A DNA stretch of 64,000 nt from Leucobacter sp. UT-8R-CII-1-4 (GTDB lineage Bacteria > Actinomycetota > Actinomycetes > Actinomycetales > Microbacteriaceae), in NCBI RefSeq assembly GCF_030010235.1, contig NZ_JASCRS010000004.1, positions 248,001 through 312,000 on the forward strand. Direction: 5' to 3'. The position numbers and the translations under genes are program-made. The notes beneath the pieces were generated by a model. That model was not told the origin of the DNA. It was given only the letters and a program-made list of their open reading frames with translations, and searched no databases. Every line of letters begins with the position of its first letter. The first letter of the stretch is position 1. Shown piece after piece: positions 863 through 19,987 of this stretch.

Positions 863-2482
863 ATGGCGACCGTCGTTGCTCTCTCCGGATCTGTCGCGTC
901 CGGGAAGACTACTCTCGCTAAGGCTCTGGAAGAACGTTGGGGCGGGGTGATCATTTCCACTCGGGAGGTGCTGGCCAAGCGCGCCTCTGAGCGGCGAGTG
1001 AGCTTGACAAACAGAAGAGACTTTCAGGAGTTCGGGGATTTACTGGACCGGGAAACGGGAGGTTCATGGGTGGCTGAAGCCTCCCATGCCAGCAAAGACA
1101 CTGTCGAAAGCCTCATAATTATCGACGCAGTTCGAATTGAGCAGCAAGTTAGCGCACTAAGGGAGATCTTTGGGAGATCTCTAGTTCATGTGCATCTCGA
1201 GACCAGTAGCCGCGAAGAACTCGCCAATCGATATCGCAAGCGGCGAGGATCGAACGCGTACTTCGAAGAGCTTGGGAGCTACGAAGAAGTTCTTGAGAAC
1301 GAAACCGAAGCTCTCATTGCGAATCTCGGCATGCACGCCGATGTGGTTATTGACACTTTGCGCAACACGGAGAAAGATCTTCTAGTTCGTTGCGAAGCTC
1401 GACTAGGCCTCCTCCCCTCCCTTACAGACCCGCTGGCGGATGTGCTCGTTGGTGGGCAGTACGGTTCAGAGGGCAAGGGGAACGTTTCCTACTATTTGGC
1501 GCCGGAATACCATTCACTCATACGGGTGGGTGGCCCAAACGCCGGGCATAAAGTCTGGCACGACGGAAAATCGTACACCCATCGCTCGCTTCCCTCGGGG
1601 GCCTTATCGAACCCTCACGCAGACCTTATCATCGGGCCCGGCGCTGTTCTCAACCTTTCGGTTCTTCAGAATGAACTGCAAGAGACAGGTGTAGATCCCG
1701 GCAGAGTTAAGATCGACCCTCAGGTAATGGTCATAACGGATGAGGACATAGCCGCAGAGAAGGACCTTCGTCGTGCGATCCAATCCACGGGGCAAGGAGC
1801 AGGAGCCGCTGCAGCCCGAAGAATCACTGGCAGAGGAGAACCTAGAGCACAATTAGCCAAGGACCTTCCCGAGTTTGCGAGCTTTCTTCATCCCACTGCG
1901 GATCTTCTTCACGAAGCGTTCAAACAGGGCAACCGCGTCTTAGTGGAAGGCACCCAAGGAACAGGCCTCAGCCTCTACCATGGGACATACCCCTACGTTA
2001 CTAGCAGGGACACCACGGTGGCCGGTGCGCTGGCCGAGGTGGGTATAGGACCACGTCGAGTACGCCGAGCCATCATGGTGGCTCGAACCTATCCCATCAG
2101 AGTCAACGGTGCCTCGGGACCGATTGGGAACGGAAACGAGCTCACTTGGGATGAAATCGAGGCCCGATCCGGCGTTGAAGGAACCGAAGTCACTGAACTT
2201 AGTTCAGTTGGAAAGAAGCAACGTCGGGTCGCAGAGTTCGACTGGGCAATGCTCCGGAGATCGGCCGAGTTGAACTCTGCAACCGATATCGCGTTAACTT
2301 TCGCAGATTACATCAGCTCGCACAATGCAAGTGCGTACCGCTATGAACAGCTCTCTCCCGCCACGCTTCAGTTCGTAGAAGAGGTCGAGAGTGTTACTGG
2401 CGCGTCAGTCTCACTGATAGCAACTTCTTTCTCCGACCGCAACATAATCGATCGACGAACCTGGCGCTCAGGTCGAAAATAG
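863..2482 (+). CDS. Nucleotide kinase fused to a PurZ-like adenylosuccinate synthetase
   Basis: ATG 863 is preceded by AAAGGAAG, giving 539 residues. Residues 1 to about 190 form a P-loop kinase: Walker A GSVASGKTT at 9-17, a 'TREVLAKRA' segment, 'IIIDAVR' and an Arg-rich lid (RYRKRRG). From residue 193 the protein is an adenylosuccinate synthetase of the short type: VGGQYGSEGKGN, GGPNAGHK, SLPSGAL, EGTQGTGLSLYHGTYPYVTS and the Arg-rich KKQRRVAEFD. In housekeeping PurA the first motif reads WGDEGKGK with a catalytic Asp. Here that position is Ser202, while the catalytic His (His229) is kept. The guanine-recognition TKxD motif reads TFAD. Phage PurZ, which joins dGMP to aspartate on the route to 2-aminoadenine, carries the same Asp-to-Ser/Gly change. 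Substrate and role here are inference. Confidence 0.82.
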   Translation: MATVVALSGSVASGKTTLAKALEERWGGVIISTREVLAKRASERRVSLTNRRDFQEFGDLLDRETGGSWVAEASHASKDTVESLIIIDAVRIEQQVSALREIFGRSLVHVHLETSSREELANRYRKRRGSNAYFEELGSYEEVLENETEALIANLGMHADVVIDTLRNTEKDLLVRCEARLGLLPSLTDPLADVLVGGQYGSEGKGNVSYYLAPEYHSLIRVGGPNAGHKVWHDGKSYTHRSLPSGALSNPHADLIIGPGAVLNLSVLQNELQETGVDPGRVKIDPQVMVITDEDIAAEKDLRRAIQSTGQGAGAAAARRITGRGEPRAQLAKDLPEFASFLHPTADLLHEAFKQGNRVLVEGTQGTGLSLYHGTYPYVTSRDTTVAGALAEVGIGPRRVRRAIMVARTYPIRVNGASGPIGNGNELTWDEIEARSGVEGTEVTELSSVGKKQRRVAEFDWAMLRRSAELNSATDIALTFADYISSHNASAYRYEQLSPATLQFVEEVESVTGASVSLIATSFSDRNIIDRRTWRSGRK

Positions 2483-2493
2483 GGAGCTTTCAA

Positions 2494-3135
2494 TTGAACA
2501 GAGAAGACTTCATTGCTCGCCATCCGCGACTATTTCACATGGCGGCGGCAGATTCTTGGCCTTCGATCCAGCGTCACGGACTACTATCTACAAGCGCCCT
2601 CGTCGATCTCTACGACCCCACACCCGCGGTACGGCATGAGATCCTAGAAACCGTAAGACGCAGAAGCTATGTGCTGAGTTACCCTGGTCTGGATGACGCC
2701 ACAGTTCGCGATCAACTTCCGCTTAAGTTCATCGATCGCTGCCTGTTTCCCGGTGTAACCACTCAGGAATTCCTTGATGCTCTCAACACTCGAGTCTTTT
2801 TCCATGTCGATGAGGAACGACTACTTCGACTCCTGAACGCAAGGGCATATCGCAACAAGGTTCATGACGTGCTCATGCTCGACACCGCCACGTTTCTGGG
2901 CAATCATCCAAACGTCGAGCTAGCTCCATACAACACCGGAAGTGTACATGTCCCAAACATGCCCCCCAGAGGTCCCGAGACCTTTGAACCTCTGGAAGAC
3001 TATTCCTTGCCTTACTGGGAGCGCATCCGCGGAAGCAAAGATGCAATCGTGGAGCTCACGGTACGTCACTCAGCACAGTTAGGCAACGCTGTACTTTCTG
3101 CATCCCAATGGCACCACGGAGCGCGGGTCTCTTAA
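2494..3135 (+). CDS. DUF7002/DarT-like protein, possibly ADP-ribosyltransferase fold
   Basis: TTG 2494 follows AGGGAG by seven bases, and the gene begins 11 bases after the kinase-PurZ-like gene, so they are co-transcribed. The 213 residues start with 'LFHMAAADSWPSIQRHGLLSTSAL'-type sequence (about residues 13-35). This His-plus-'SIxxHGLLS' pattern is shared by DUF7002 proteins and resembles the N-terminus of DarT/DUF4433 ADP-ribosyltransferases. A mid-protein 'RVFFHVDEERLLRLLNARAYRNKVHDVLMLDT' block, quoted only in outline here, is typical of the same uncharacterised family. The resemblance to DarT is by eye and no catalytic Glu was confirmed. The context suggests a partner of the unusual purine enzyme, either an effector or a modifying enzyme. 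Confidence 0.55.
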   Translation: MNREDFIARHPRLFHMAAADSWPSIQRHGLLSTSALVDLYDPTPAVRHEILETVRRRSYVLSYPGLDDATVRDQLPLKFIDRCLFPGVTTQEFLDALNTRVFFHVDEERLLRLLNARAYRNKVHDVLMLDTATFLGNHPNVELAPYNTGSVHVPNMPPRGPETFEPLEDYSLPYWERIRGSKDAIVELTVRHSAQLGNAVLSASQWHHGARVS

Positions 3136-3185: not shown

Positions 3186-3713
3186 TCAATCGATGAAAAG
3201 CGGTGGTTGATCGAGAAGAACATCCACAATTCTGGGCGGCCTATAGTCCGACCCTTTGAGCACCTTGCCATCTTCTCGAATAACAGGACGTCCATCCTGA
3301 CCCAACTTGCTCATGTTAGCGCGATGAATCTCGCGAAGGACCGCGTCTAGATCAATCCCATACGTTATCGCCGCGCCGTACGTGACGTAAACAATGTCTC
3401 CAAGCGCGTCTGCAATCGCTACAACGTCTTCGCACTCGACTGCGTTCTTGAACTCTTCGAACTCCTCCCGCAGAAGCTCCACCCGGAGTTTGCTGAGCTC
3501 GTTCGACACTCGCCCCCGCGGACGACTCGCTATCGGCAAATCGAAGGCAACATGGAACTCACTAACGATTTGCGTGTTCGACACGGCTTCATCGGCCCGA
3601 CGGCGTCTTGATTTCCGGCTTTGAATCCTTGGCGGCAGACCTAAATCAAGCTCAAGCTGGAGATACTCTGGCTCGCGCAGAGCCACCGCGGCAAGCTCAA
3701 TCGTGTGTCCCAT
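3186..3713 (-). CDS. MazG-like nucleotide pyrophosphohydrolase
   Basis: A protein of about 175 residues on the opposite strand, ending 51 bases from the end of the DUF7002-like gene (convergent). ATG 3713 is used; a TTG at 3722 would add three residues. The all-alpha NTP pyrophosphatase signature is visible: ELLREEFEEF (ExxEE) and, about 20 residues later, DALGDIVYVTYG (metal-binding Asp residues). It is followed by the tail 'KLGQDGRPVIREDGKVLKG..YRPP' that is common in phage-type MazG-like proteins. The family hydrolyses (d)NTPs to (d)NMPs. Z-genome phages pair PurZ with a MazG-like dGTP hydrolase (MazZ) that supplies dGMP, which makes this neighbour suggestive. Substrate is not readable from sequence. 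Confidence 0.72.
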   Translation of the reverse strand: MGHTIELAAVALREPEYLQLELDLGLPPRIQSRKSRRRRADEAVSNTQIVSEFHVAFDLPIASRPRGRVSNELSKLRVELLREEFEEFKNAVECEDVVAIADALGDIVYVTYGAAITYGIDLDAVLREIHRANMSKLGQDGRPVIREDGKVLKGSDYRPPRIVDVLLDQPPLFID

Positions 3714-3722
3714 ACCACTCAA

Positions 3723-4297: not shown

Positions 4298-5181
4298 CTA
4301 CTTCTCAGCACTCTCAGTATCAACCGTTGCTTTAGGCGACTCCTCCGCACTGAACACAGGGTCAAGGATTGCTGCTACACGTGTCAGCTGGTCGTCCAGT
4401 CTCTCATCACAAGCCGCTTCGAGCCCCTCTTTCCGGCGCCAGGCTACCACTTTGCTTGCGAAAGAGCACCATGGCCTTCAACGACCGGGCCGATGGGTTG
4501 CAGCTCGATTCCCCGATACGCTGCCACTGCCCGCACCGCGCGCTCAAGCGCTTCGCAATCCAGTCCGACGCTGCCAAGAGTGACGATGTCCACGTAGTCT
4601 CGCCAACGAGTGCTCGTAATTCCCCGTTCGAGGATGGTAACGCCCTTCTCTGCAACAGTCGATTCAGGCGCGTAGCCGATGAGGGTGATCGGCTCGCCCA
4701 GAACTCGATCGAGCGTAACTTTGCGCAGAGCGGGAACAATCGGGTCTCCTGTCGACACGTCCCATGAGATGGTGCCCTTCCACGTTGAGATTGCGACCTT
4801 CACGCGAAGGCGCAAGCCCGGGTATTCAGCGCCGTCCCGGATCTCGATCACGTTGACGCCGTCTAGATCGAACATCACGCCGTCGTTGACGGCAACCTCG
4901 GCTACGGCCCGAACGACTTGCTCAAGATGGGCGGGGGTGGTGTCCGCGCTGATTGCATTTGAGTCAGCATCCTTCGTGGGGCGACGCACACCATAGGCTC
5001 CGAGCAGAAGACCTCCCTTCAACACAAAGTCGGGGGTGTATGGCGTGCGATTGAGACGATCTAGGAACAATTCCAGCGCGTGTCGAATTAGATACTCATG
5101 CGTAGGAATCGGGATACCGAGACGCGCCGCATCAGTGCGTGCGGCCTTCTGAATTTCCCGGTAGACCTCGTCAGTGTTCAC
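4298..5181 (-). pseudogene. abiEii: AbiEii nucleotidyltransferase toxin, frameshifted near its C-terminus
   Basis: The first 245 residues are a clear AbiEii/AbiGii nucleotidyltransferase: 'FVLKGGLLLGAYG..RPTKDADS' near residue 55 carries the nucleotide-binding GG and the KDxD-type metal site, and 'AEKGVTILERG...RWRDYVDIV' is the second conserved block. The frame then stops at a TAG (4444-4446) right after 'GALSQAKW'. Shifting one base restores 'VAWRRKEGLEAACDERLDD...RVAAILDPVF', the expected AbiEii C-terminus, down to a stop at 4298. One G is missing in the run around 4447. AbiEii toxins transfer nucleotides to targets and are neutralised by AbiEi. Loss of the last 50 or so residues probably inactivates it, unless the missing base is an assembly error. 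Confidence 0.8.
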
Positions 5182-5727
5182 GCCAGCAACTCCAAGGTGG
5201 TGAGGACGGTCGATCTTGCACGAGGAAGCCGACTGGCGATCTGCATCAACGCAGCAGGCTTACCACCGCGACGCAGCCACTCCTTCGTCGCGTCCCGTGC
5301 GATTTCATACCCGGTAGAGGAACGCAAACGGAAGCAATCGGCGATCGTGCGCTCAGGACTGTAGATCCCGATCATCTGGCCGCTCCCCGCAATCAGTATT
5401 TCGTCCCGTCCAAGATCGAACGTCTCCTTGTTAAAGTGGTGCCACCTGATCGCGCCCTGTGTTCTGGGCGCGCGCGCCACGTGGGATTGCCACATCCAAC
5501 GCGTCGGGGATCGCGTCGGTGAGATCGTAGTGAGCGAGCACCGACAGGAGGCAAATGGTGGCGTCTGGTCGCCTAGTCGCGGCCTCGATCTGCTCCCAGT
5601 CTGCAGGTGGTGCATCAATAGGCATGTAAATGCCTCGCGCAATGCGCTCTCAGCGCCCCGCCTTCGCACCCCAGTACAGGGCGCTCCGAGTAGTCCCTGC
5701 TGGCGCGCTGGGCCTAATCGCACGCAT
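5178..5727 (-). pseudogene. abiEi: AbiEi-type antitoxin, broken by a stop codon and a frameshift
   Basis: This is the partner of the AbiEii gene, with which it overlaps by ATGA. From ATG 5727 the protein reads a short winged-helix start ('TTRSALYWGAKAGR'), then hits an in-frame TGA at 5650-5652, and continues in the same frame as 'ERIARGIYMPIDAPPADWEQIEAA...LLSVLAHYDLTDAIPDALDVAIPRG'. Around 5450 one extra base shifts the frame, and 'AIRWHHFNKETFDLGRDE...IYSPERTIADCFRLR' continues in the next one to the stop at 5178. The combined sequence is a full AbiEi antitoxin of the transcriptional-regulator type. With two lesions it is unlikely to be functional, and the toxin is also damaged, so the pair appears to have decayed together. 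Confidence 0.78.
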
Positions 5728-6220
5728 CTCAACCACCTTTCGAAACGAATCGAGTACAGGTAACTGTGTCTGACGACGTTTCGTCCCGCCAGTGCGGCCA
5801 CCGCGGAGCCTAGATGTTGACGCTCCGGGAGCACTAGCAACCTACGCCGAGGGAAAGTTAACGAATCTTCAACACATGAGGCTAGCTACTGACAACCCGT
5901 TCCAGACCCTTCACAGCCGTGCTCCTTGATCCCGCTTTCGGGCCCTAGTTTTGAGTGCACAGCGACGCCTGCTTGGCCCGCCCGCACCCGCAGATCTTCA
6001 TAGAAGAACTCTGAGCCGCAAGGCCCTAGTGAACGATGCAGCGCTGAGCAGTGGTTCGCGAGCCAGCGCCTGAGCCCGAGCCCGCGCCTGGTGATGCTCG
6101 TCGAGTCTGACCATTGCGAACAGAACCGTGTGGTCTCCCAACCATCGCGCTTTTAGCGAGGCGCTCGCATCCCTCGGCTTCGGAGGCGCTGACTGCTAGC
6201 GATGCGAAATCCTCGACTTA
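5728..6220. other. Intergenic stretch without a recognisable gene
   Basis: Close to 500 bases between the AbiE remnant and the integrase. No frame resembles a known family. It presumably contains the promoters of the two flanking units. I see no tRNA sequence here that could be the partner of the tRNA-Pro fragment at 7502-7546. Confidence 0.45.
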
Positions 6221-7375
6221 ATGAGCATCCATCATTCTTCCTTTCCTCCGTTCGGAACTCGCTTGAGCACTGACGTCCGTCCTCGTGGTTCCCGATTTCG
6301 TGCTCGAGTGCGTTGGACGGATCCCGCCACACGCCAACGCAAGAGCCGTTCAATCACCGTGGAGAACGAAACGGAGGCAGAGGCATTCTTTGAGAATATG
6401 CGATCGCCGTTTGACCAGAAGCTGGACCCGTTGATCACGCTGAGTGTCTATGCAGGTTTGATCGGGGAACGCTTCCTGCGTGGCGTCGATATGACTTCCA
6501 CAGCGAGCGGTTACCGCGCAGGCCTGAGGCTTCGTGTTCTGCCAACGCTTGGCCACGTTCGTATTCGCGATCTCTCTGCTGGCATCGTGGATCGCTGCAT
6601 CGACGAGTGGGAGGTTCGATACTCGCCGTCAACCGTAAAGAACACGATTGTCGCCCTCACGCGGGTGCTTGACGAAGCAGTCCGTGATGAGATCATCAGC
6701 CGCAATCCAGCACGATGCCGGTCGAGCCGGAGGTGTCAGGCGCGGGGAAAGCTTGCATCGATCCGTGAGATGCCTTCGCGTGCGGACGTTGAGCGGATTG
6801 CGGCGGCATGTGCCGAAGTGCATCAGAGTTACTCCGACCATGTGATGCTGAGTGCGTTCCTTGCTGCACGGACTTCAGAAGTTGCCGGCCTCTTGGTCCG
6901 GGAGGTGGATTGGGAGAACGGAGTCGTCGCAATCGAGCGCCAGTGTTTCCCCGGAACCGGCGGGCTGAGCGTCAAAGCGCCAAAAGGGCGTCGTGCGCGG
7001 CTTGTGCCCATAATCGATCCGGTTGCACCGGTGTTGCGACGGCTCACAACGCAACGTCGTCGCAACGCGCCCCTGCTGCGGGGTACGCGCGGAGGTGTCA
7101 TCACGACGGCAGCTTCGCGAAGTGCAACCGGCTGGGATGGACTGGCTGCATCACTAGTGTTGCAGGGGTTGCGCCGTCATGATCTGCGGCATGCAGGTGC
7201 AACCTGGTTTGCGAACGCGGGGATTCCGATTCATGTGGTGAGCGACATTCTCGGGCATGCTTCCGTCGAGACGACGCGTGCGTACCTGCATCCTGACAAT
7301 TCCGCTTTGCGCGCGGCAGTGCGATCGATGAACCAGCACTTCCTCAGGCAGCGACGACGCCATTGTACCAACTGA
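6221..7375 (+). CDS. int: Tyrosine recombinase (site-specific integrase)
   Basis: A 384-residue phage-type integrase. The N-terminal third holds an arm-binding region ('RGSRFRARVRWTDP') and a SAM-like core-binding domain. The C-terminal catalytic domain shows Arg in 'AARTSEVAGL', the HxLRH box 'RRHDLRHAGATW', His in 'DILGHASVETT' and the nucleophile Tyr in 'RAYLHPD'. All catalytic residues of the family are present, so it may be active. It ends inside a long perfect hairpin and 127 bases from a tRNA-Pro 3' fragment, the usual arrangement of an integrase beside its attachment site. It most likely mobilised the island on its left; see the attachment-site entry for orientation. Confidence 0.9.
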   Translation: MSIHHSSFPPFGTRLSTDVRPRGSRFRARVRWTDPATRQRKSRSITVENETEAEAFFENMRSPFDQKLDPLITLSVYAGLIGERFLRGVDMTSTASGYRAGLRLRVLPTLGHVRIRDLSAGIVDRCIDEWEVRYSPSTVKNTIVALTRVLDEAVRDEIISRNPARCRSSRRCQARGKLASIREMPSRADVERIAAACAEVHQSYSDHVMLSAFLAARTSEVAGLLVREVDWENGVVAIERQCFPGTGGLSVKAPKGRRARLVPIIDPVAPVLRRLTTQRRRNAPLLRGTRGGVITTAASRSATGWDGLAASLVLQGLRRHDLRHAGATWFANAGIPIHVVSDILGHASVETTRAYLHPDNSALRAAVRSMNQHFLRQRRRHCTN

Positions 7376-7416
7376 ACCCCTTGACCACGTCTGGTCAAGG
7401 GGTTCAGTTGGTACAA
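7363..7416 (+). terminator. Perfect 25-bp hairpin overlapping the integrase stop
   Basis: Bases 7363-7387 and 7392-7416 are perfect reverse complements separated by only four bases (cgtc). The integrase TGA (7373-7375) lies in the left arm, and an A/T-rich 'aaaatt' follows. It can act as an intrinsic terminator in either direction. The arms contain the 11-mer accccttgacc, which also occurs in the neighbouring tRNA-Pro fragment (7531-7541), so they may double as recombinase-binding sites. Confidence 0.75.
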
Positions 7417-7432
7417 AATTGGGTACACCAAA

Positions 7433-7468
7433 GTCGTTCAGAGCTGGTATACTACCCAGGTGAACGAC
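7433..7468. repeat. 8-bp inverted repeat between integrase and attachment site
   Basis: gtcgttca at 7433-7440 is inverted as tgaacgac at 7461-7468 with a 20-base spacer that includes ggtatactacc. It lies in the stretch between the integrase gene and the tRNA fragment, where arm-type or excision-control sites are often found. It could also be an operator. The function is unproven. Confidence 0.35.
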
Positions 7469-7501
7469 CGAGAAAACCTTCCTGATCAGGAACTTTTCTC
7501 T

Positions 7502-7546
7502 TGGTCGGGTTGACAGGATTTGAACCTGCGACCCCTTGACCCCCAG
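7502..7546 (-). other. tRNA-Pro(GGG) 3' half, probable attachment-site remnant
   Basis: Read on the minus strand, 7546 to 7502 gives the anticodon-loop bases ctggggg, the 3' anticodon stem tcaag, the variable loop, a T arm with gcaggttcaaatcctgt, the 3' acceptor strand caacccg, then a and cca. That is the 3' half of a GGG-anticodon proline tRNA. The bases upstream of the anticodon loop (gacgc instead of a matching cttga) do not form the 5' half, so no intact tRNA exists here. Identity starting exactly in the anticodon loop and running to CCA is typical of att sites used by tyrosine integrases. A fragment like this normally marks the end of an element whose other end has the intact tRNA. Confidence 0.72.
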
Positions 7547-7812
7547 GCGTCCGAACGGCTCAAATCTCACCAAGAACCGCGTGATTCCGCGGATCAGATC
7601 ATGCAGAGTACGTCACGAAATGCGTGGATTGCATGATTCTGGTCCCCTTTTGGTCCCCTCCCCGAACCGACGAACAACTGGCTCAACTTGGCTCCAGGCT
7701 TATGATGACCTGTCAGCCAGGACCATTGAGAGGATGCGGCCATCATCTATCGATTCATCAACGCCAAATACGCTCGCAAGGCAACACTGATCGAGAGGCT
7801 CGAGAGAGGCTT

Positions 7813-9639
7813 CTAGCCTGATTCCTGCCCCGGAGCTGCAGGCTCTCGCGCTTCAGCCGCCCCTGGATCGTGCAGCGCGTTCCAGTAGGGCATGAAGACG
7901 AGCTTGAGCGTGAACCACCAGAGGTAGACGCTCACTCCTGAGGAGAAGACAGTGTCGCCGATCAACCCATGCGCAACCTCGTTGCGCAGATTCGGGCCAA
8001 TAGGTCCGCACAGCAGGGCGCGAAGTTCGAACACAATATCTTCACCGAATATGTCGATGACCCGCTCGTTCTCCATGAGTCCGGAGAGTCCGACCTCGTT
8101 TTCATTGCCGTCCGCACTAATGACGCTCGTGCGTTCACCAGCGTTCGCAAGGTGCAGTCGCACGAGTGCCTCGACAGCGGGCGCGAGAAGATGAACCGCG
8201 GCTCCGAAGTCTCCGTTGTATCCGTAGTACAGGCCACGCGCGAAGACCCCTTCGTGCGTGCTTGGCACGATTGCACTGCCCGAAGCAAGCGCTTGGAAAT
8301 CCCCGATGTGAAGCCGGTGAGCAGTTGATAGCTGTCTCCATGCCCTCGGCAGCAGAATACCGCCGAGAAGATTAACCCGCTGCCGGTAGTACTGGATCAT
8401 TCCTTCCCAAATCTCTGCCTTCTCGCCGTAGATTGTGGCGTCGTCACTCTCAGGCGAGCGGTACACAGTGCGCCCATCGGAACTGAGGGTTCGCCGTGTC
8501 ACTAATAACGAAACTGGGGACTGCTGCCCGACTTCCTCAGCCTCAGTCCGAGCTGTCGACGCGCTCGCGAACGGCTGTAGGCCAGCGAAGCGTCGAATCG
8601 ACTCAACGGGATCGTCGCTACGGATCACGGCAAGCAACTCAGTGACCTGGCTGCCGAGGTCCTCTCTCTCCGTAGTGAACGTTTGCATCTGACCGATCGC
8701 TGCGGCGCCACTCTCCCTGATTCGACGCGCAAGTTCGGTTGGTAGATCGATCGCCCCAAGGCGCTCGCGGGCCGCACGGGACAACGTGCGAAGAATCTTG
8801 AGCGCCAACTCTAGGTGAATGGATGCACGAAAAGCCTGGCTCGCGTCTGCTTCAGCGATCAGCCGCTGAACGATTGCGTACGTTGTCTCTTCTGCCGACC
8901 CTGGATCGTCTGCCCGCAGATACCACTCGGCCGCGACCTCCAAGGTGTTTTGCGCGGCGATGGACTCAATGCCTTCAGCATGTGCTGCGAGGTGTTCAGC
9001 GATCGCCGCTGCATGCTCTCGCCCAAGTCGATTCTCGCCGAGCATTCGCGCCGCGCGTACCGCAAGCTCGCCGTCGGAGGAAGTGCTCGCGGCCTCAACA
9101 AGCTGGCGCTCGATCTCATCGAGCTGCGCGGATGCAACGCCGCGGAAGCGAACGGCGACGGCAAGCCCACGTTCCCACTGCTCAGAGGCGTGGCTGATGG
9201 CCTCGCTAGTCACCCCATGGTCGACCAGGGCCTGGAGCTGCTCGACATGCCGAGTCGGGCGAAGCGAAGGGTCTCCAGTGATTGCTACCACGTCGAGGAC
9301 GCGACTCCGGAGGATCAGGCTGGGGATGAGGTCAATGACCGCGCCCAGCACCGCGATGTCCGCCTCCGTGAAGTCCGCGGGAATGGAACTCCGCCGATCG
9401 CCGAACGTAGCGAAAGGACCGTACGGGTTGGTCCAGTCGTCCCCATTCGGCATGAACCACGAGATCGTCGCAAGCAGGCCCGCCACGAAACGGACGTCGT
9501 CGTCGATTTCGGCATCATCTGCAATTGCCCGGAGAGGACTGCCCATGAGGAGCGTTCCGGTGTCTTGTTCAGCGAGCGCTGCCTGCAGTTCAGGGTGGCT
9601 CGCAGCTACCCGCCACCGAGAGTCCCGACCCATGCTCAT
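7813..9639 (-). CDS. DUF4209 (HEPN-like) protein
   Basis: A 608-residue protein that is mostly alpha-helical and Ala/Glu-rich. The last 150 residues carry the DUF4209 pattern: 'GYNGDFGAAVHLLAPAVEALVR' followed by 'GPNLRNEVAHGLI'. The RNxxxHG motif is the catalytic signature of HEPN ribonuclease-type domains and is intact here. The N-terminal region resembles the DUF7380-like domain that often precedes DUF4209. Proteins of this type are common in defence islands, and this one sits beside a Qat system, although it is separated by 188 bases and is not known as a Qat component. An RNase effector role is inference. Confidence 0.72.
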   Translation of the reverse strand: MSMGRDSRWRVAASHPELQAALAEQDTGTLLMGSPLRAIADDAEIDDDVRFVAGLLATISWFMPNGDDWTNPYGPFATFGDRRSSIPADFTEADIAVLGAVIDLIPSLILRSRVLDVVAITGDPSLRPTRHVEQLQALVDHGVTSEAISHASEQWERGLAVAVRFRGVASAQLDEIERQLVEAASTSSDGELAVRAARMLGENRLGREHAAAIAEHLAAHAEGIESIAAQNTLEVAAEWYLRADDPGSAEETTYAIVQRLIAEADASQAFRASIHLELALKILRTLSRAARERLGAIDLPTELARRIRESGAAAIGQMQTFTTEREDLGSQVTELLAVIRSDDPVESIRRFAGLQPFASASTARTEAEEVGQQSPVSLLVTRRTLSSDGRTVYRSPESDDATIYGEKAEIWEGMIQYYRQRVNLLGGILLPRAWRQLSTAHRLHIGDFQALASGSAIVPSTHEGVFARGLYYGYNGDFGAAVHLLAPAVEALVRLHLANAGERTSVISADGNENEVGLSGLMENERVIDIFGEDIVFELRALLCGPIGPNLRNEVAHGLIGDTVFSSGVSVYLWWFTLKLVFMPYWNALHDPGAAEAREPAAPGQESG

Positions 9640-9827
9640 GAGTCAATGATATTGCCGAACGTCGGCGCTACCGTCTTAGCTTCGCTGGATAGCCCCGGAT
9701 GCTCTTGTTCGTCGGCAACTTCAACAGTTCCCAAAGTTCGATTCCCACGTAGCGTCTTCTGTGCTCCAGGCGCTCAAAACAAGGGAGCATCACGGTCGAC
9801 ATCCGGATCTCCACGAAAACTGATGCC

Positions 9828-10583
9828 TCAGTAGTCCGCTTTGAGCGCACTCGCGACAGGGGCGAGAAGCGCCCGCTCATTGGCTTCGATCTGTCTTTTC
9901 GCCTCATGCTCGCTCACACCCCACAGCTCCGCGATCGGCCCGAGGACCGTGACGATATCCCATGGGTTCAGTACCTGACTTCGCACCCGTACGAACGGCC
10001 CATCAGTTTCAAGGACAATCTTGTCCTTGGGCATGCCCGCCACTAGGTCTCTGCCTTTCGCGCCAGCCAACATCGTTGGACCAACACTGAACCAGCACCC
10101 GCGCCCGATCGCGCGCCCCAGCTGTGAGTGTGAGCCTGAGAACCAATGAAGCACCGGGGTCTTGATCTGAGAGTACTGGTCGAGTTGGTTAAGTACATCC
10201 TTGGCCGCCCTACGGCTGTGGATCGAGATGACCTTTTCGTCTCCGGCGCTACAAGCTTGGAGCACGTGGTCGAATACTTCCAACTGGTCTTCCCAGAAGG
10301 TGCGGCACTCGGGAGAGCCATCTAGGCCTACTTCACCAACAAAGGGAGTCTTCGCCAAGTAAGTGTCGAAGAGGGCCAGTTCATGCTTTCTCTGTCCTGC
10401 GAGTTGAGGGTGCAAGCCAATCGCAGTGCGGACCGCAGAACGTCCCGCGGCGAGCTTCGCGGTGCCGTTCCACGCGGAGGGCGTCGTGGTTACCGAGAGT
10501 ACGCCGATACCGCGGCGTTGACTCTCGTCGGCTACGGCAGGTGGCGATTGGTAGAGATCTAGGTGGCAGTGGAAGTCGATCAT
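9828..10583 (-). CDS. qatD: QatD, TatD-family hydrolase of the Qat defence system
   Basis: A 251-residue TIM-barrel metal-dependent hydrolase of the TatD family. Visible metal ligands are the N-terminal HxH in 'MIDFHCHLDLY', Glu in 'FVGEVGLDG', His in 'ISIHSRRA', His in 'LHWFSGS' and Asp in 'VLETDGPF'. It is the last gene of a four-gene unit, and its ATG overlaps the stop of qatC by four bases. In the characterised Qat anti-phage system (QatABCD) the TatD-like protein is one of four components, and its exact substrate is not established. All expected catalytic residues are present. Confidence 0.9.
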   Translation of the reverse strand: MIDFHCHLDLYQSPPAVADESQRRGIGVLSVTTTPSAWNGTAKLAAGRSAVRTAIGLHPQLAGQRKHELALFDTYLAKTPFVGEVGLDGSPECRTFWEDQLEVFDHVLQACSAGDEKVISIHSRRAAKDVLNQLDQYSQIKTPVLHWFSGSHSQLGRAIGRGCWFSVGPTMLAGAKGRDLVAGMPKDKIVLETDGPFVRVRSQVLNPWDIVTVLGPIAELWGVSEHEAKRQIEANERALLAPVASALKADY

Positions 10584-11857
10584 ACGAGACCGTACCTCTC
10601 ATGGACTTTCCGTAGTTCGCCAAAGCCGCGCTGGAGCATGTCTCGAAGCTCAAGTCGGTTATGGATTAGCGGAGAGCCGAGAGTCGGTCCGAGCCAACGG
10701 TCGAAGCCATCCTGTTCGATCGTGAGCAGCGCGATCGCTACGGAACGCACGTCATCAAACGCTGCATGGTCTTCATCTTGGATAGCCAAGTTGTCGTACA
10801 CGTACTCAGTCGGGTCTGGGCGTCCCCACGCCTCGAATGAAGCGCGTCGAATCTGGCATGGGACGCATCGACCGCAATGCCTGTAGTTGAAGCGCTGGAA
10901 TCGACCGCAGCTTGTTGATAGCGGCGCCTCGGTGGACAACAGGTCTTGGTCAAGACACTCGCGAAGCATCTCGCCCTTGGTCTTCTCCGCGTAGGGGTTC
11001 TTGATCTGGACATTGAGTCCTACGGCATCGAAGATGCCTTGCATTCGTCCCAGAAACTCGGGATGCGCTGTTCGAGTGCTGAGGCTTCCTACGCGAGCCG
11101 CTGTCAACGGCGGGTTGATCGCAATGAATCCGTTCTCACTCACGTAGAGAGGTACCGGCTGGCCGTAAGCGTAACGACGGGTGGCGGTGGCGGCCAGCAC
11201 GGCGAAGGCCAGAAAGATCAGTGAACGGGAGCGTTGTGAGGTTTCCTTCTCACCACGTGGGGTACTTGCGTTGTGATTGAGTTGGAGGTGATCGATGCCC
11301 CCGCCAATGCGCCGGGCGAACCGGTCTTGCTTTGCCGCGTCTCCACGCACCGTTTGGCTGACGGCAAGCAGTGTCGTTCCTGCGGCAGTGAGGTCGATCG
11401 CACCAATCAAAGAGTCGAGGCCACCAGATAAGAGCGCGACAGCATCACTCGTCGGGTATCGAGGCTTCTTGGGCGGGGTTGGGATTGCTCCGCCGTCTCG
11501 AAACGAGATCGCCCAAAGATCGGTGGTTAGGAACTTCAACGCCGTAGCGATTGCTTCGGCGTGCGGGTGCCAACGCTCCGGATCACTTAAGGCAATCTCA
11601 AGTTCGATCTGCCGGGTCCATCCGTCTGGGCTTCCGCTTCGCAACGTCGTGCCGTCGGCGACAACAACCGACAGGGCGATAGCGAGCAAGTCCCACGCTA
11701 CGGCATCTGGCGTCAGCTTCTGTCGGCGGACCTTTTCCGCAGCAGACCACCCCGCGGTGAGTACATCGCTGGTTTCGCCATGTCCGAACAACACGATGGG
11801 AGTTCGGTCGCCGCTTCGATCGCTCGCCGATAACCTGGGAACGCTGAGGTACTTCAT
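10580..11857 (-). CDS. qatC: QatC, QueC-like protein of the Qat defence system
   Basis: A 425-residue protein whose middle holds a PP-loop pyrophosphatase motif 'VALLSGGLDSLIGAIDL' (SGGxDS), as in QueC, the 7-cyano-7-deazaguanine synthase. A C-terminal Cys cluster 'SCGRF...RHCGRCVPC' matches the QueC zinc site. The N-terminal 120 residues are an extra domain typical of QatC rather than housekeeping QueC. It overlaps qatB (ATGA) and qatD. No other queuosine or deazapurine genes are nearby, which fits a defence rather than a tRNA-modification role. Confidence 0.9.
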   Translation of the reverse strand: MKYLSVPRLSASDRSGDRTPIVLFGHGETSDVLTAGWSAAEKVRRQKLTPDAVAWDLLAIALSVVVADGTTLRSGSPDGWTRQIELEIALSDPERWHPHAEAIATALKFLTTDLWAISFRDGGAIPTPPKKPRYPTSDAVALLSGGLDSLIGAIDLTAAGTTLLAVSQTVRGDAAKQDRFARRIGGGIDHLQLNHNASTPRGEKETSQRSRSLIFLAFAVLAATATRRYAYGQPVPLYVSENGFIAINPPLTAARVGSLSTRTAHPEFLGRMQGIFDAVGLNVQIKNPYAEKTKGEMLRECLDQDLLSTEAPLSTSCGRFQRFNYRHCGRCVPCQIRRASFEAWGRPDPTEYVYDNLAIQDEDHAAFDDVRSVAIALLTIEQDGFDRWLGPTLGSPLIHNRLELRDMLQRGFGELRKVHERYGLV

Positions 11858-12666
11858 GAGGTGTACTCCTCGAAAACTGCCAGCGTCTCGCGGAGCGCCG
11901 CACGGGTAAGTTGAGCGATGCTCCTGGTCGTCGGAGTTTCGCTGTTGTCGCGAATCTTGCGAAACGAGGCTGAGACTTGCTCCGAGATAAACTCGCGGAT
12001 GTATCTCAGCCGGCGCATCCCGGTGACTGCATCTGGGGCTTTGTCCAGCACAGTCTTCTGTAAGTCGAGGCAGAATCGCGCATATACGTCGAGAGCTGCA
12101 TAGCGCTCGATCACGTAGTTCCTCTGCGCTTCGGTCAGCGCAAAGAGGTCGGCGTCGGGGAACCGTACTAGTAAATCGGATAGCGCATTGCGGATCGAAA
12201 GGCGTGATGCTTCTTTGTCCTGCGTTCCATCCGCGGGACTGGCGGCGTCAACGATCGCGTCGAGTACAGCATTCGCGTCGCTCCCGTTAGCCAGAGCTGC
12301 ATCGCGGAGCGACGTCCCGTCCGGCGTTCGGCCAGACTGAAACATCGAGCCCAGCCGGCCGGCTGTCGCTGCCGTTCCACCAAGCCGGCGCGTCATGGTC
12401 GCGGTGCCGCCGTAGCCGCTTCTTACATAGTGACCGAGCGACCGGCGAAGGTCCCGGCTGTCCCCATTTTTGGCATAGCTTCCAAGACTTCGGCGAGTGT
12501 CCCTGAACCGTGCAGGTGGTGCTTCCTGCGGCCGGCTCTGGTCGGGCTCGTCGGATGTGTCGTCGGTGCTGGGGTCGGATGGGTTGTCCGGGGGCACGTC
12601 GTCGGCCCACGGTGGGACGAGGGCGACTCCGGCGCCTGGTCCGGTGCTACTTTGCGAGGTTCCCAC
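11854..12666 (-). CDS. qatB: QatB component of the Qat defence system
   Basis: A 270-residue protein with a low-complexity Pro/Asp/Ser N-terminus (about residues 1-50), a Gly/Arg-rich 'RRSLGSYAKNG...RRSLGHYVRSG' repeat, then a helical domain. This layout, and its place between the KAP ATPase and the QueC-like gene, identifies QatB. Its start lies 20 bases inside qatA and its stop overlaps qatC. QatB has no assigned enzymatic activity. The R-R-S-L-G-x-Y repeat near residues 60-85 is a noticeable internal duplication. Confidence 0.85.
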   Translation of the reverse strand: MGTSQSSTGPGAGVALVPPWADDVPPDNPSDPSTDDTSDEPDQSRPQEAPPARFRDTRRSLGSYAKNGDSRDLRRSLGHYVRSGYGGTATMTRRLGGTAATAGRLGSMFQSGRTPDGTSLRDAALANGSDANAVLDAIVDAASPADGTQDKEASRLSIRNALSDLLVRFPDADLFALTEAQRNYVIERYAALDVYARFCLDLQKTVLDKAPDAVTGMRRLRYIREFISEQVSASFRKIRDNSETPTTRSIAQLTRAALRETLAVFEEYTS

Positions 12667-14518
12667 TCTTGGACCTTCCTTCGATGACCTTCTTTACTGG
12701 CCCCTCGACATCCGTGGCGTTGTTCCAATGTTTGAGTACATCGGCGGCCCAGGGTTCCGACTCGATCTTCGGCACGATACTTGCCTGAATCTGTCTGCCG
12801 GGTCGCTCGATGAGAAAGCCTGCGAGGCTTCGTCCTTGGTTTGGGTCGGCCGCAGCGAGGGCAATGCAGGCATCCAAGATTGGCGGAGCTCCCCACTCTT
12901 GGACCTGGCGAGCGCGCGCAAGAACGCGATCCATCATGATCGACAACTCGGTTCGAGGCAGCGCCGCGAGTTGAGTAACGAGGGCCTGGGACTCCTGGGG
13001 ATCCTCAACAAGTGCTCGAAGCAGATCGGCCGCCGCGGAGGACAGACGATCCGATGCGGTGACCAAGGGCGCATGTTCGCGTCCGACATAGAGCGCGCCA
13101 CGAAGGTCTATCTGGCCGAGCGCTGGCGGGAGAGCCAGCCATTCACGAACGAACGCTTCACTCCATGCCTCGTCGGGCTCAAACTCCTCCTCCTTCGTTG
13201 CTGCTTCTTCCCACGGAGTTAGGATTTGAGGCTTTCCATCCGGGTCGGCGTTTACCGCGCCTGTCAATGCCGCGTATGCCGCTGGAGAAGCCAAACGCTC
13301 GAACAGGAGCAACTTCGCTAAAACCGCTTCATCCACGCCTACGCCTTGAGCGGTCGAGATGGTCATGCGGATCGAAAGCGCGTTGAGGAAGCGCTTGATC
13401 AACCTGGGATTTCCCGCGATCCGATCCGAGGTTGTCATGAGCGGAGCAAGCCGCTCCGCTGTCTCCAACCGAGCAAGCAGCGTGGGCTTCAAGTCAATCC
13501 CGCAACTACTAACGAATGACCGGTCGACGCGCTTGCCCTTCCAAGACTCTCGGAGTTGGCCTGCAATCGATGTCCGAAGTTGATCCTTGTGCGCCTGAAC
13601 GAGGTCGCTGTTCTCGATGAACAGCATCATGAGGTAGGCACGAACTTCTTGAGTTCCAAGCGCTGGTACGCGAATAGGTATCTGTACAAGCTTGTCGAAG
13701 TAGTTGGTGATTAGTTCGTCATCTTCCAGTCCACCGAAGTGCTTCTTGACGGCGTACTTGATCATATTGTCGTCGGCAGCGATGACGAACGCCGTGTGCT
13801 CAAGGAACAAGAAAAGACGGATAGCTTCCAGAGTCGATATTGTCGTCCCTGGCATGCACCGATCTAGATCGTCGATGAGCACCACGAGCGTGATATCAAG
13901 CGCTTTGATTGCGTCTTCGAACGAGTCGCGAAGAGCCTGAATCTCTTTCGGCGGTGACACCGCTTCCTTCGGCTTCACCAGAGCTGTCGCGGCGGTTACT
14001 GTGGCCGCCGCCTGCTCGCCAAGAGTCTCCAGCGCTTCATTGTCCAGGTTGCCAGAGGTTGCATCCTTGACAGCTCCAGCGATCTCGCCCGCGAGTCCCA
14101 ATGGCGGAAGCCCCAGCGCTATCGACGCGGCAGGCAACGCGACCAGTTTTGCAAGACGGAACCATCGGACCCGTGAAAGAAAGTCCTTTGCTTTGTCGAT
14201 CCCTGCCTTGCGAGCTTCTGCCTCAGCCTCGAGCTTGTTGGCAATCACTTCGAGAAGCGCTGCACGGGCGTCGTCGTATCCCTGGTACAACCAAGCGTTG
14301 AACTCTACGAAGACGAACTTCTCTGGTCCCTGCTCTGGTTGATACTTCGCGAGGGACGTCTTTGTCAGCTTGATCATCGAGGACTTGCCAACACCCCAGG
14401 CACCAGATACCCCGATTGATACGGGCCGTCCGTCAGCGCTGACGATGACCTCGGCGATGGTGTCGGCGACACCCTCGAAGTTAAGAAAGTCGCGATCAGT
14501 CTCGTTGTCGGTCCACAT
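12647..14518 (-). CDS. qatA: QatA, KAP-family P-loop NTPase of the Qat defence system
   Basis: A 623-residue KAP NTPase. Walker A 'SGAWGVGKSSMIKL' is at about residue 40, a long hydrophobic insertion ('LVALPAASIALGLPPLGLAGEIAGAV') follows near residue 150, and Walker B 'TLVVLIDDLDRC' is near residue 215. The insertion between the Walker motifs, which may contact the membrane, is characteristic of KAP ATPases. It is the first gene of the qatABCD unit, and the other three follow with overlaps, so one promoter upstream of 14518 should serve all. It is full length for QatA. Confidence 0.9.
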   Translation of the reverse strand: MWTDNETDRDFLNFEGVADTIAEVIVSADGRPVSIGVSGAWGVGKSSMIKLTKTSLAKYQPEQGPEKFVFVEFNAWLYQGYDDARAALLEVIANKLEAEAEARKAGIDKAKDFLSRVRWFRLAKLVALPAASIALGLPPLGLAGEIAGAVKDATSGNLDNEALETLGEQAAATVTAATALVKPKEAVSPPKEIQALRDSFEDAIKALDITLVVLIDDLDRCMPGTTISTLEAIRLFLFLEHTAFVIAADDNMIKYAVKKHFGGLEDDELITNYFDKLVQIPIRVPALGTQEVRAYLMMLFIENSDLVQAHKDQLRTSIAGQLRESWKGKRVDRSFVSSCGIDLKPTLLARLETAERLAPLMTTSDRIAGNPRLIKRFLNALSIRMTISTAQGVGVDEAVLAKLLLFERLASPAAYAALTGAVNADPDGKPQILTPWEEAATKEEEFEPDEAWSEAFVREWLALPPALGQIDLRGALYVGREHAPLVTASDRLSSAAADLLRALVEDPQESQALVTQLAALPRTELSIMMDRVLARARQVQEWGAPPILDACIALAAADPNQGRSLAGFLIERPGRQIQASIVPKIESEPWAADVLKHWNNATDVEGPVKKVIEGRSKSGNLAK

Positions 14519-14947
14519 GCTCGGCCGCCTCCTCGCGTTCCTTGCTCTGATCGGTGATCCAAGCTGGCCTCACCTCAGATTCTCCCATGTTGTCTGCGCC
14601 CTGCGCCTCTGTCGGGTCTGTGTCGCACTCAGATCTGTCTCATACCGAGGCGGAACGATTCGCCGATTCCTCGCCAACCCTTCTTGCAGAAACAGACGAG
14701 CGCGTCTACAACTCATACTCCCTCGCTTCGTAAAGTGGGGTACGCCTGGAAAAGAGGCAGACGGTCTACGAACCGAAAGTGACGTGACCACGATGCCTAA
14801 GAGCTCAACTACAGAGACGACGCGCGGGCGTCAATGCCAATGGTCTTGCGAGCGGGCTACGTCAGAGTCTGAGCGATCCTCTGAGAGGATAGGATCGCGC
14901 ATCATTGACGATGTGCCGAATAACGTTCTGTAGGGGATTGAGGACTC
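14519..14947. other. Divergent promoter region between Qat and Gabija operons
   Basis: About 430 bases separate the divergently transcribed qatA and gajA. No frame here resembles a known family. It must hold the promoters of both defence operons. I could not assign a convincing -35/-10 pair or operator. Confidence 0.5.
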
Positions 14948-16705
14948 ATGCACCTAGCGCGAATCACCATCGAAAACTTTCGGGGTATTTCAAAGGCGGA
15001 AGTCTCGTTCGCGGGAAACACAGTGCTCCTCGGCGACAACAACTCGGGTAAGTCCACCGTGCTCGAAGCCGCGGAACTTGCACTAGGTGCTGATCGCTTG
15101 TTCCGTCGCCCAGTCATCGATGAGCACGACTTTCACGGTGGTGAATATCTCGTGAATGAGATCACAATCGAAGTCATGATTGTTGATCTTGACGATGAGC
15201 TTCAATCTCGTTTTCGAAACAACCTCGAGTACTGGGACTCTGCCAGCAACACGCTGCTCACATCTTTACCTGGACCAGGTTCGGACGCACTTCCCTCCGT
15301 GCGGATCCGATTCGTTGGACGGTACGACGCGGAAGAGGACGATTTCGAAGGTCGAACCTGGTTCTGCAGTCCAGAAGACGATGAGGGGAACCTCACCAAC
15401 GAGGCGAGATCGGCTGACAAGCGCGAATTTGGCTTCCTCCTGCTTCGTGCCCTGCGGACAGGTACCCGAGCCATGTCGATGGAACGCGGCTCGCTCCTTG
15501 ACTATGTTCTTCGCACGTTTGAGGTCGAAGTTCAGATGTGGGAGGCCCTCCTCCAAAAGCTACGAAGTGTGGCTGTGGCCGGAGAAGAGAATCCCGAGTT
15601 TGGCCAGGTTCTCTCAAGTATCGATGAAGCTATGAAACAGATCGTCGCCGCAGAGTGGGCAGATGCGCCGCATCTTAGGGTGTCTGAACTCACGCGGGAG
15701 GACCTCCGCCGAGTGCTCAAGTCCTTCATGGCCACGGGGGTGACCGGTTATTCGGCGCCTTTCAACCACCAAGGATCGGGCACTATCAACTCACTGGTAA
15801 TCGCCATGCTTACTCTCATCGCCCAAAAACGTGAGGGACGCGTCATCTTCGCGATGGAGGAGCCAGAGATCTCAGTTCCTCCGACGGCTCAAAAGAGAGT
15901 CGTCGATCTCATTCTCGCGCTCGGCGGCCAGTCCATATTTACCACCCACTCACCTTACGTGCTCGAAGAGTTCGAACCTGAGCAGATGACCGTGCTTTCT
16001 CGTGCACACAGCACCGGGCAGCTGTCTAGTACACCCGTCACATTGCCTGCCTCGCTGCGTCTTAAGGCGTTCCGTAACGGGATTCGAACGCGATTCTGCG
16101 AAGCACTGCTAGCTCGCAGAGTTCTCGTTACGGAAGGAGACACTGAGGCTGCTTCGTACGCCGAACTCGCCAAAACTGCCGCCCGAGCCAACCCCGCCCG
16201 ATTTGCGAGGCTCGACACCCGCGGTTGGGCTATTTTCGATGCACAAGGTGAAACCAACGTCGCCGGCTTCGCGGGCTTCTTCCGCGGCCTTGGAAAAGAT
16301 GTTGCTTCAGTATTTGATCAACAGCCCGCTGATCGTCTAGACGAGATCAAGGCGAGTTCTGACTACACATTCGAGCAGCCGTACGTCGGCTTCGAAGACT
16401 TAGTTCTGGCAGAAGTTCCCGTTGATGCGAAACGCAAGTATGTTGATGCGCTAATCGCTAATGGGACGTGGCCTACACATGTGACAGGGCCGAGAGAGGA
16501 TACTGATGACGAATACGTCAAGGCACTGAAGAAGCTTCTATCGAAGACCAAGGGAGATCGCTTCGCAGCTGATCTGGTAGCAGGTCTGGCGGAGGTTGAC
16601 TTCCCTCCCTCTATGACGAGTGTCCTGGAAGCATTGAAGGAAGCCAGCGAACCTCCCGCACCTGTCTCCACGGACACCATAGCGCCGACCGCTGACGCTG
16701 GTTAG
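14948..16705 (+). CDS. gajA: GajA, OLD-family ATPase-nuclease of the Gabija defence system
   Basis: A 585-residue OLD-family protein. The ABC-type ATPase half shows 'ITIENFRGI', Walker A 'LLGDNNSGKSTVLEA' (about residue 27), Walker B 'VIFAMEEPEI' and the switch His in 'IFTTHSPYV'. The C-terminal half has the TOPRIM nuclease motif 'VLVTEGDTEAASYAELA' with its catalytic Glu, and later acidic residues ('VASVFDQQPADR'). Length and order match GajA, the DNA-nicking subunit of Gabija that senses nucleotide levels and cuts DNA when ATP falls. gajB follows 17 bases later on the same strand. Confidence 0.88.
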   Translation: MHLARITIENFRGISKAEVSFAGNTVLLGDNNSGKSTVLEAAELALGADRLFRRPVIDEHDFHGGEYLVNEITIEVMIVDLDDELQSRFRNNLEYWDSASNTLLTSLPGPGSDALPSVRIRFVGRYDAEEDDFEGRTWFCSPEDDEGNLTNEARSADKREFGFLLLRALRTGTRAMSMERGSLLDYVLRTFEVEVQMWEALLQKLRSVAVAGEENPEFGQVLSSIDEAMKQIVAAEWADAPHLRVSELTREDLRRVLKSFMATGVTGYSAPFNHQGSGTINSLVIAMLTLIAQKREGRVIFAMEEPEISVPPTAQKRVVDLILALGGQSIFTTHSPYVLEEFEPEQMTVLSRAHSTGQLSSTPVTLPASLRLKAFRNGIRTRFCEALLARRVLVTEGDTEAASYAELAKTAARANPARFARLDTRGWAIFDAQGETNVAGFAGFFRGLGKDVASVFDQQPADRLDEIKASSDYTFEQPYVGFEDLVLAEVPVDAKRKYVDALIANGTWPTHVTGPREDTDDEYVKALKKLLSKTKGDRFAADLVAGLAEVDFPPSMTSVLEALKEASEPPAPVSTDTIAPTADAG

Positions 16706-16722
16706 GAAGGCTCAGAGTAACC

Positions 16723-19743: not shown

Positions 19744-19987
19744 GTGCTGACTCGGTGGCTTCGGGAAAGGTGGCGGCGCCGGTAGGTTCGCGCATGGTGT
19801 CCATCCATGCGCGAACGTCGTTGGTACCGAACATGATCCGCTTTCCGAATCGGTAGGCGCGGGGGCCTTTCCCATTGGTACGCCAGTCGTAGATGGTAGA
19901 GACAGGCACGCCCAGGTAAGCGGCGAGTTCGTTGATATTCAGGAGAGGTTCTAGTTCGTGGGGGCTGGTCTGTGGTTCATCGTTCAT
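19736..19987 (-). CDS. xis: Excisionase / AlpA-like helix-turn-helix protein
   Basis: An 83-residue protein with a MerR-type winged helix: 'LLNINELAAYLGVPVSTIYDWRTNGKGPRAYRFGKRIMFGTNDVRAWM', quoted in outline only. This is the standard excisionase/AlpA domain that directs integrase toward excision. Its TAG overlaps the GTG of the integrase, the classic coupled xis-int arrangement. It is transcribed away from the relaxase region and probably shares a promoter upstream of 19987. Confidence 0.85.
   Translation of the reverse strand: MNDEPQTSPHELEPLLNINELAAYLGVPVSTIYDWRTNGKGPRAYRFGKRIMFGTNDVRAWMDTMREPTGAATFPEATESARG

Follow-up and report, generated by a model that had tools for sequence, protein, structure and literature searches.

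At the start of a 64,000-nucleotide stretch of the Leucobacter sp. UT-8R-CII-1-4 genome (contig NZ_JASCRS010000004.1, positions 248,001 to 312,000; hereafter the window), we found a gene encoding a nucleotide kinase fused to a PurZ-type adenylosuccinate synthetase, followed by a gene for a DUF7002 protein with a predicted ADP-ribosyltransferase (ART) fold. We propose, with a probability of roughly 0.45, that this locus represents, in its minimal actinobacterial version, a cellular conflict module built on 2-aminoadenine (Z) nucleotides, in which the DUF7002 ART is the likely effector. We favor this reading because of the residues the fusion shares with PurZ, the branch that sets PurA apart, the presence of a separate purA, the pairing with DUF7002, the partner genes, the contexts of related viral fusions, and the neighboring defense genes.

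The fusion gene (863-2482, + strand) is an intact reading frame for a protein of 539 aa, with a Shine-Dalgarno-like AAGGAAG at 850-856 ahead of its start. Profile matches and structure comparison identify an N-terminal P-loop nucleotide-kinase-like domain (aa 1-185; 863-1417, + strand), within which residues 5-130 match AAA_18-type kinases. Adenylosuccinate synthetase profiles match the C-terminal part, which alignment, trees, and structure comparison assign to the PurZ type (aa 192-532; 1436-2458, + strand). In the fusion alignment, kinase-domain residues G14, K15, and R123 are kept in 38/38 rows, R91 in 37/38, and D88 and R127 in 36/38. An AlphaFold2 model computed from this 38-row alignment has a pLDDT of 89.0; its N-domain superposes on adenylate-kinase-like enzymes and its C-domain on PurA, PurZ0, and PurZ structures. 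The gene is thereby confirmed as a fusion of a P-loop kinase with a short domain of PurA/PurZ type; a preliminary description of this DNA, prepared from the sequence alone, had reported a kinase-PurZ-like fusion with correct coordinates (863-2482) and residues (Ser202, catalytic His kept). PADLOC matched the kinase domain alone, as dCTPase (7e-6) and as VakA, which we take to stand for viperin-associated kinase (3e-5); on the NCBIfam side, the likeness to antiphage dCTP deaminase and viperin-associated kinase is weak (1.7e-4). This P-loop similarity links the fusion distantly to those systems, but the enzyme partnered with its kinase is of PurZ type.

We aligned the C-domains of the fusion loci with 14 PurA rows, 10 phage rows, and related viral proteins that stand alone. 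The phage rows comprise PurZ from S-2L, phiVC8, SH-Ab 15497, PMBT28, and ZP6 and PurZ0-type proteins from Ghobes and from Jera, Beethoven, Parvaparticeps, and Keanu, the last four grouped there by this analysis only. The PurA rows are 12 housekeeping enzymes (from the Leucobacter genome and 11 other fusion-bearing genomes), P. horikoshii PurA, and a short PurA from a deazapurine-type cluster. With identical rows merged, the position of the PurA catalytic Asp is Ser in 95 of 96 fusion-locus rows (the remaining row is truncated there) and in 10/10 phage rows, versus Asp in 14/14 PurA rows; the Ser counts were favored by the motifs used to scan for GTDB relatives (Q[YFW]GSEGKG and VGGPNAGH) and, most of all, by those used for viral loci (VG[AG]Q[YFW]GSE and [VMI]RVGGPNA). 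All eight plasmid fusions, retrieved by tblastn with no motif filter, also have Ser. In the window this is Ser202, within GGQYGSEGKG (codon 1466-1468, + strand), and the catalytic His229 of NAGH is kept (codon 1547-1549, + strand). A column comparison found Ser at position 202 in 37/37 fusions, together with E299, S308, R408, and I412, which are common to the phage rows and all 37 fusions; position 480 is F in 37/37 fusions and in PurZ, and mostly M in PurZ0.

A single branch set the PurA rows apart in two trees, with supports of 100 (SH-aLRT) and 100/99. The first tree gathered 36/37 fusions into one clade, the stray being a long-branched viral-collection row (L143). A more careful tree, from which L143 was left out, recovered a single fusion clade (20/20), outside which lay the PurZ0-type rows, themselves not one clade. 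The Leucobacter genome encodes a separate, ordinary Asp-type purA (G000:C4:218310-219554), as do all 11 other fusion-bearing genomes checked. Ser202, the tree position, and the separate purA rule out a housekeeping PurA, and sequence comparison supports a C-domain of PurZ type. The PurZ-like assignment in the preliminary description therefore stands, and the trees did not give the outcome it had named as contrary, a position among ordinary PurA. Several observations nonetheless weigh against simply calling the domain PurZ. The structure closest to the C-domain is the archaeal PurA of P. horikoshii (39% identity). The NCBIfam model for PurZ, NF038379, scores 204.4 bits, below its cut-off of 300, so the fusion is not filed in that phage PurZ family. 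D482, which aligns with the guanine-recognizing Asp of E. coli PurA, is kept in the fusion, whereas phiVC8 has N and S-2L has Q. An approximately unbiased test did not reject a grouping of fusions with PurA (p 0.098), so the fusions may be the first of the Ser-type groups to branch off.

The DUF7002 gene (2494-3135, + strand; 213 aa) lies 11 bp past the fusion stop. A confident structure prediction gives its product a DarT-like ADP-ribosyltransferase fold, at 10-17% identity to DarT structures over superposed residues. H15, R72, D73, N147, and E187 are each invariant (57/57); by order alone, E187, the candidate catalytic glutamate, together with R72, D73, and N147, can be paired with DarT1 residues E152, R52, D54, and N104, as given in the available part of PMC11543638. 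Our comparison set consists of 88 loci from outside the viral collection (79 from GTDB, eight from plasmids, and the window), in which "nearby" means inside the fetched locus, up to ~10 kb on either side. DUF7002 is encoded near the fusion in 87 of these 88 loci, usually just downstream, and the sole miss is at a contig end. Distances for the two proteins correlate (r 0.56 across 70/88 loci; best of 999 permutations, 0.22). The near-constant pairing and the correlated distances therefore suggest a functional link. Any DUF7002 occurs in 6/296 genomes of the class, and the family is also found elsewhere without the fusion; it had no match in the PADLOC scan. One fusion-free DUF7002 gene (L183:5596-6789) lies directly behind a gene for a 162-aa protein that resembles 2H phosphoesterases by eye only. 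At nine loci (L041, L044, L047, L052, L055, L057, L058, L064, and L081), the DUF7002 gene is followed by a ~240-aa family, often with MKNQYFGD near the start; the one member scanned had no Pfam match.

Convergent with the fusion-DUF7002 pair is a gene for a 178-aa MazG/PRA-PH-like nucleotide pyrophosphohydrolase (3186-3722, - strand; PRA-PH, 1.7e-18). This family is found in 15/88 loci, the window included, as actinobacterial copies in which metal-ligand-type residues E86, E87, E90, D105, and D109 are kept (15/15). Its closest solved relatives are DR2231, nearer than MazZ, so a close MazZ relationship is unsupported; PADLOC gave no match. Five of the 88 loci, all actinobacterial, also carry purB, four of them exceeding the TIGR00928 cut-off. 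The commonest further partner, replaced or joined by the MazG-like gene in the actinobacterial group, encodes an ImmA/IrrE (CapP-like) M78 protease fused to a macrodomain and is present in 63/88 loci at a threshold of 150 bits, some loci ending near the fusion. Taking all loci together, 63 gave a strong match, and in 55 of these the gene lies directly upstream on the same strand. The HExxH motif is invariant in 21 rows, CapP and IrrE are matched, and the macrodomain matches BT1257 (4e-45), ALC1 (3e-21), and C6orf130/TARG1 (2e-12). The protease-macrodomain profile had no match in the window, the 12 kb upstream, or the genome, other macrodomain and NADAR families not having been searched for. 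Two neighbor clusters, f108 and f287, were set aside because most of their members run antisense to the protease-macrodomain gene and are probably not real genes. All eight plasmid loci (Rhizobiaceae, Methylobacterium) carry an HD-domain gene, whose likeness to DatZ is distant (hhalign, 96.9% over 76 columns) and does not make it a DatZ; the HD profile had no match in the window. Each accessory enzyme could have a place in the phage pathway, which runs from dGTP to dGMP, then through Asp addition and fumarate release to phosphorylation. The eight plasmid loci also share a conserved gene for a ~455-aa protein (L004:12110-13468, with counterparts in L005-L011), of a family distinct from the protease-macrodomain gene, with no Pfam match and no Protein Data Bank match below an E value of 0.1.

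The fusion family is rare and sporadic yet widely scattered, on bacterial chromosomes, plasmids, and some archaeal metagenome-assembled genomes (MAGs). Phylum labels, as given in database records, are available for 79/88 loci and name 15 phyla in all. The GTDB loci are the best 80 (79 loci) of 414 relatives, retrieved with a full-length query that favors fusions; many rows are MAGs, and gene calls are the longest open frames, uncurated. Three loci with short frames, perhaps from disrupted genes or faulty assembly (L059, 278 aa; L090 and L091, 454 aa each), were counted unchanged. A fusion occurs in 1/394 genomes of the class, namely the Leucobacter genome itself, and in 2/100 genomes sampled from the family, a set in which the two further members of the genus have none. 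The phylum of Terriglobus yielded one full-length match in 199 genomes (Terriglobus itself) and one partial match. An archaeal MAG contributing one locus (L032) has two Adenylsucc_synt matches at G398:C92:70780-73630, ~1 kb apart and in opposite orientations; their frames, 588 and 535 aa, are as long as those of kinase-PurZ fusions.

Among viruses, 50,697 phage records held no full-length fusion (0/218 matching records reached 80% coverage). IMG/VR yielded 10 fusion rows on nine contigs; L143 is a weak, divergent match, and L101 and L168 are pieces of a single gene split between the two ends of a contig. DUF7002 accompanies three of these rows (L095, L098, and L099). L095 and L099 have nearly the same scores as bacterial loci L088 and L072 and are therefore possibly bacterial DNA. 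The other seven rows, on six contigs (L094, L096, L097, L100, L101/L168, and L143), had no DUF7002 match. Five of these six carry deoxyribosyltransferase (NDT)-like, MazG-like, or DNA polymerase A genes; searches of L143 by phmmer with such proteins gave no match. Two-domain NDT-like plus MazG-like proteins are encoded near the fusions in L094 (11811-12719), L097 (2144-2929), and L100 (2677-3381), L101 has an NDT-like gene ~9 kb from its fusion, and DNA polymerase A lies within ~2 kb of the fusion in L094 and L096. The NDT-MazG proteins are possibly a salvage-plus-pool enzyme of Z phages. The polymerases could not be assigned as Z-specific DpoZ, blastp similarity being too weak to tell either way. 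These contigs resemble Z-genome phages, which couple PurZ with nucleotide-pool enzymes, according to the available parts of PMC12884076 and PMC8342488. The viral contexts are the best indirect evidence for synthesis of Z nucleotides by the fused enzyme.

We infer a pathway in which the MazG-like enzyme would convert dGTP to a purine monophosphate such as dGMP, which the PurZ domain would couple to aspartate. Host PurB, or the purB product of the locus in some relatives, would then release fumarate to give (d)ZMP, and the fused kinase would form (d)ZDP, from which host NDK could produce (d)ZTP. The modified nucleotide would most likely serve as activating ligand or acceptor of the DUF7002 ART, and less likely as a direct replication poison; in most relatives, the protease-macrodomain protein may restrain, trigger, or reverse the ART. 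Infection is the presumed trigger of the module. A fuller scheme, which we regard as somewhat doubtful, would run as follows in an infected cell: kinase-PurZ would turn the dGMP pool into dZDP and dZTP, nascent phage DNA would take up Z, the ART would ADP-ribosylate Z or be switched on by dZTP, and the macrodomain arm would clear host DNA. Z carries, as guanine does, the N2 amino group that DarT1 uses.

Other explanations account for parts of these data. The enzymes might poison replication directly, the fusion draining dGTP while dZTP floods the cell and is copied into phage DNA, with the ART as an independent second toxin in the operon. When the S-2L Z-cluster is expressed in E. coli, Z enters the DNA and toxicity is seen, according to the available part of PMC8342488, dGMP could be freed by the MazG-like enzyme, and DUF7002 exists elsewhere without the fusion; we consider this unlikely, since pairing with one ART family in 87/88 loci and the correlated distances suggest that the two are functionally linked. 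A DarTG-like toxin-antitoxin module, with DUF7002 as toxin, the macrodomain as antidote, and a PurZ-kinase metabolite that modulates or repairs, would fit the DarT fold, the macrodomain partner, and a DarG match in PADLOC (5e-5). We find it rather unlikely, as 25/88 loci, the window among them, lack a macrodomain gene above 150 bits (some ending near the fusion), and the conserved catalytic fusion, MazG, and purB would be left unexplained.

It is improbable that the substrate of the fusion is a different purine nucleotide (IMP, dIMP, GMP, or a deazapurine) and that its role is in modified-nucleoside metabolism with no tie to Z or to defense. The likeness to P. horikoshii PurA, solved with IMP, the retention of D482, and the short Asp-type PurA in a deazapurine-type cluster (L013) would suit such a role. 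However, L013 is Asp-type, groups with PurA, and was rejected as kin, the fusions share PurZ-type columns, and five of the six DUF7002-free viral fusion contigs carry the NDT-like, MazG-like, or polymerase A genes described above. Very improbable, finally, is a domesticated phage Z-genome gene that still makes a modified mobile-element genome, a role the preliminary description had raised. The fusion does occur in viral-collection contigs, but DUF7002 accompanies 87/88 non-viral versus 3/10 viral rows, with L095 and L099 maybe bacterial, and no polymerase was found among the scanned neighbors of the window fusion, which are not all of its neighbors; this part of the earlier interpretation is unsupported at the locus.

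The proposed Z-nucleotide module can be set against known systems. Phage Z-clusters (PurZ, MazZ, and DatZ; S-2L, phiVC8) share with the fusion Ser for Asp, E299, S308, R408, I412, F480, and a loop after V414 longer than in PurA, and have counterparts to the MazG-like partner of actinobacterial loci and the HD partner of plasmid loci. The fusion differs in its kinase, its own clade, its retained D482, its ART and protease-macrodomain partners, its cellular replicons, and the lack of any Z-polymerase seen with it, and its MazG-like and HD proteins are only distantly related to MazZ and DatZ. Actinophage PurZ0 (with DutZ, DmtZ, and DUF5664) has the same Ser motif, GSE, and the NDT-like proteins on some viral fusion contigs belong to the superfamily of DmtZ, but PurZ0 rows fall outside the fusion clade. 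DarTG and DarT1-NADAR systems resemble the module in the DarT fold and in the macrodomain of most relatives' partner gene; they are unlike it in that DUF7002 is so divergent, the macrodomain is fused to an M78 protease, and kinase-PurZ stands in between. CapP/CapH-regulated CBASS shares the CapP-like M78 domain with HExxH, but here no cyclase was seen and the macrodomain is in the same chain. In Kongming (KomABC), immune signaling relies on a noncanonical purine deoxynucleotide, dITP, and on an NAD-using effector, according to the available part of PMC12948488; the likeness is of logic only, with other enzymes and another nucleotide, and a signaling role at the fusion locus is conjectural.

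In the available parts of PMC8342488 and PMC12884076, 2-aminoadenine synthesis is a phage trait of possible archaeal origin, with only few archaeal cellular relatives mentioned. Among the matches listed in open PMC full text, we found no PurZ paired with a bacterial defense operon, no description of a kinase-PurZ/DarT-like ART unit, and no mention of DUF7002, and the part of the DefensePredictor main text available (PMC13092281) contains no "adenylosuccinate." What emerges is larger than the original finding, a unit in which kinase-PurZ and a DarT-like ART recur together across distant lineages, in many cases beside a protease-macrodomain protein: the preliminary description had rightly recognized the PurZ-type domain, the fusion, and a defense setting and missed DUF7002, the MazG-like gene, the relatives' protease-macrodomain and purB genes, and the viral fusions with Z-pathway-type genes. 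The unit touches two known kinds of system, Z-nucleotide synthesis and ART conflict systems, and there is a real chance that it is a kind of its own. If our reading is right, cells too use Z nucleotides, and their conflict with viruses is the probable setting; under the fuller scheme, a defense system would mark its target, or send its message, with a noncanonical base that it writes itself. It would join three themes in immunity, odd nucleotides, ADP-ribosylation, and CapP-type proteases. The fusion is a concrete, assayable enzyme, the reading predicts an ART with a new acceptor or activator, and the kinase-PurZ family may reveal the source of phage Z-genome enzymes.

The surroundings bear out the accessory-DNA and defense setting suggested earlier. 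Following the fusion-DUF7002 pair, a dense defense island (4444-18480) comprises AbiEii/AbiEi, a tyrosine integrase (6221-7375), PDC-S39, QatABCD, and Gabija, with GajA at 14948-16705 and a UvrD-type gene at 16723-18480; a second tyrosine integrase (18562-19875) and a TrwC relaxase (20583-24128) come next. GC content is 55-61% up to ~20 kb of the window versus 64-70% past 38 kb. Elsewhere, type I HsdM genes lie near 11/88 fusions. A second plasmid-borne Ser-type locus, without the kinase fusion (L012:5290-9931, S. medicae conjugative plasmid), encodes an HD protein, a stand-alone PurZ relative, and a dCTP-deaminase/Dut-like protein, followed by a nearby BilD gene. The deazapurine-type cluster of the R. 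leguminosarum plasmid (L013:5369-12932) encodes folE, the short Asp-type PurA, purB, QueE, IMPDH, nitrile hydratase, and QueC, and looks like a pathway for 7-deazapurine nucleoside synthesis.
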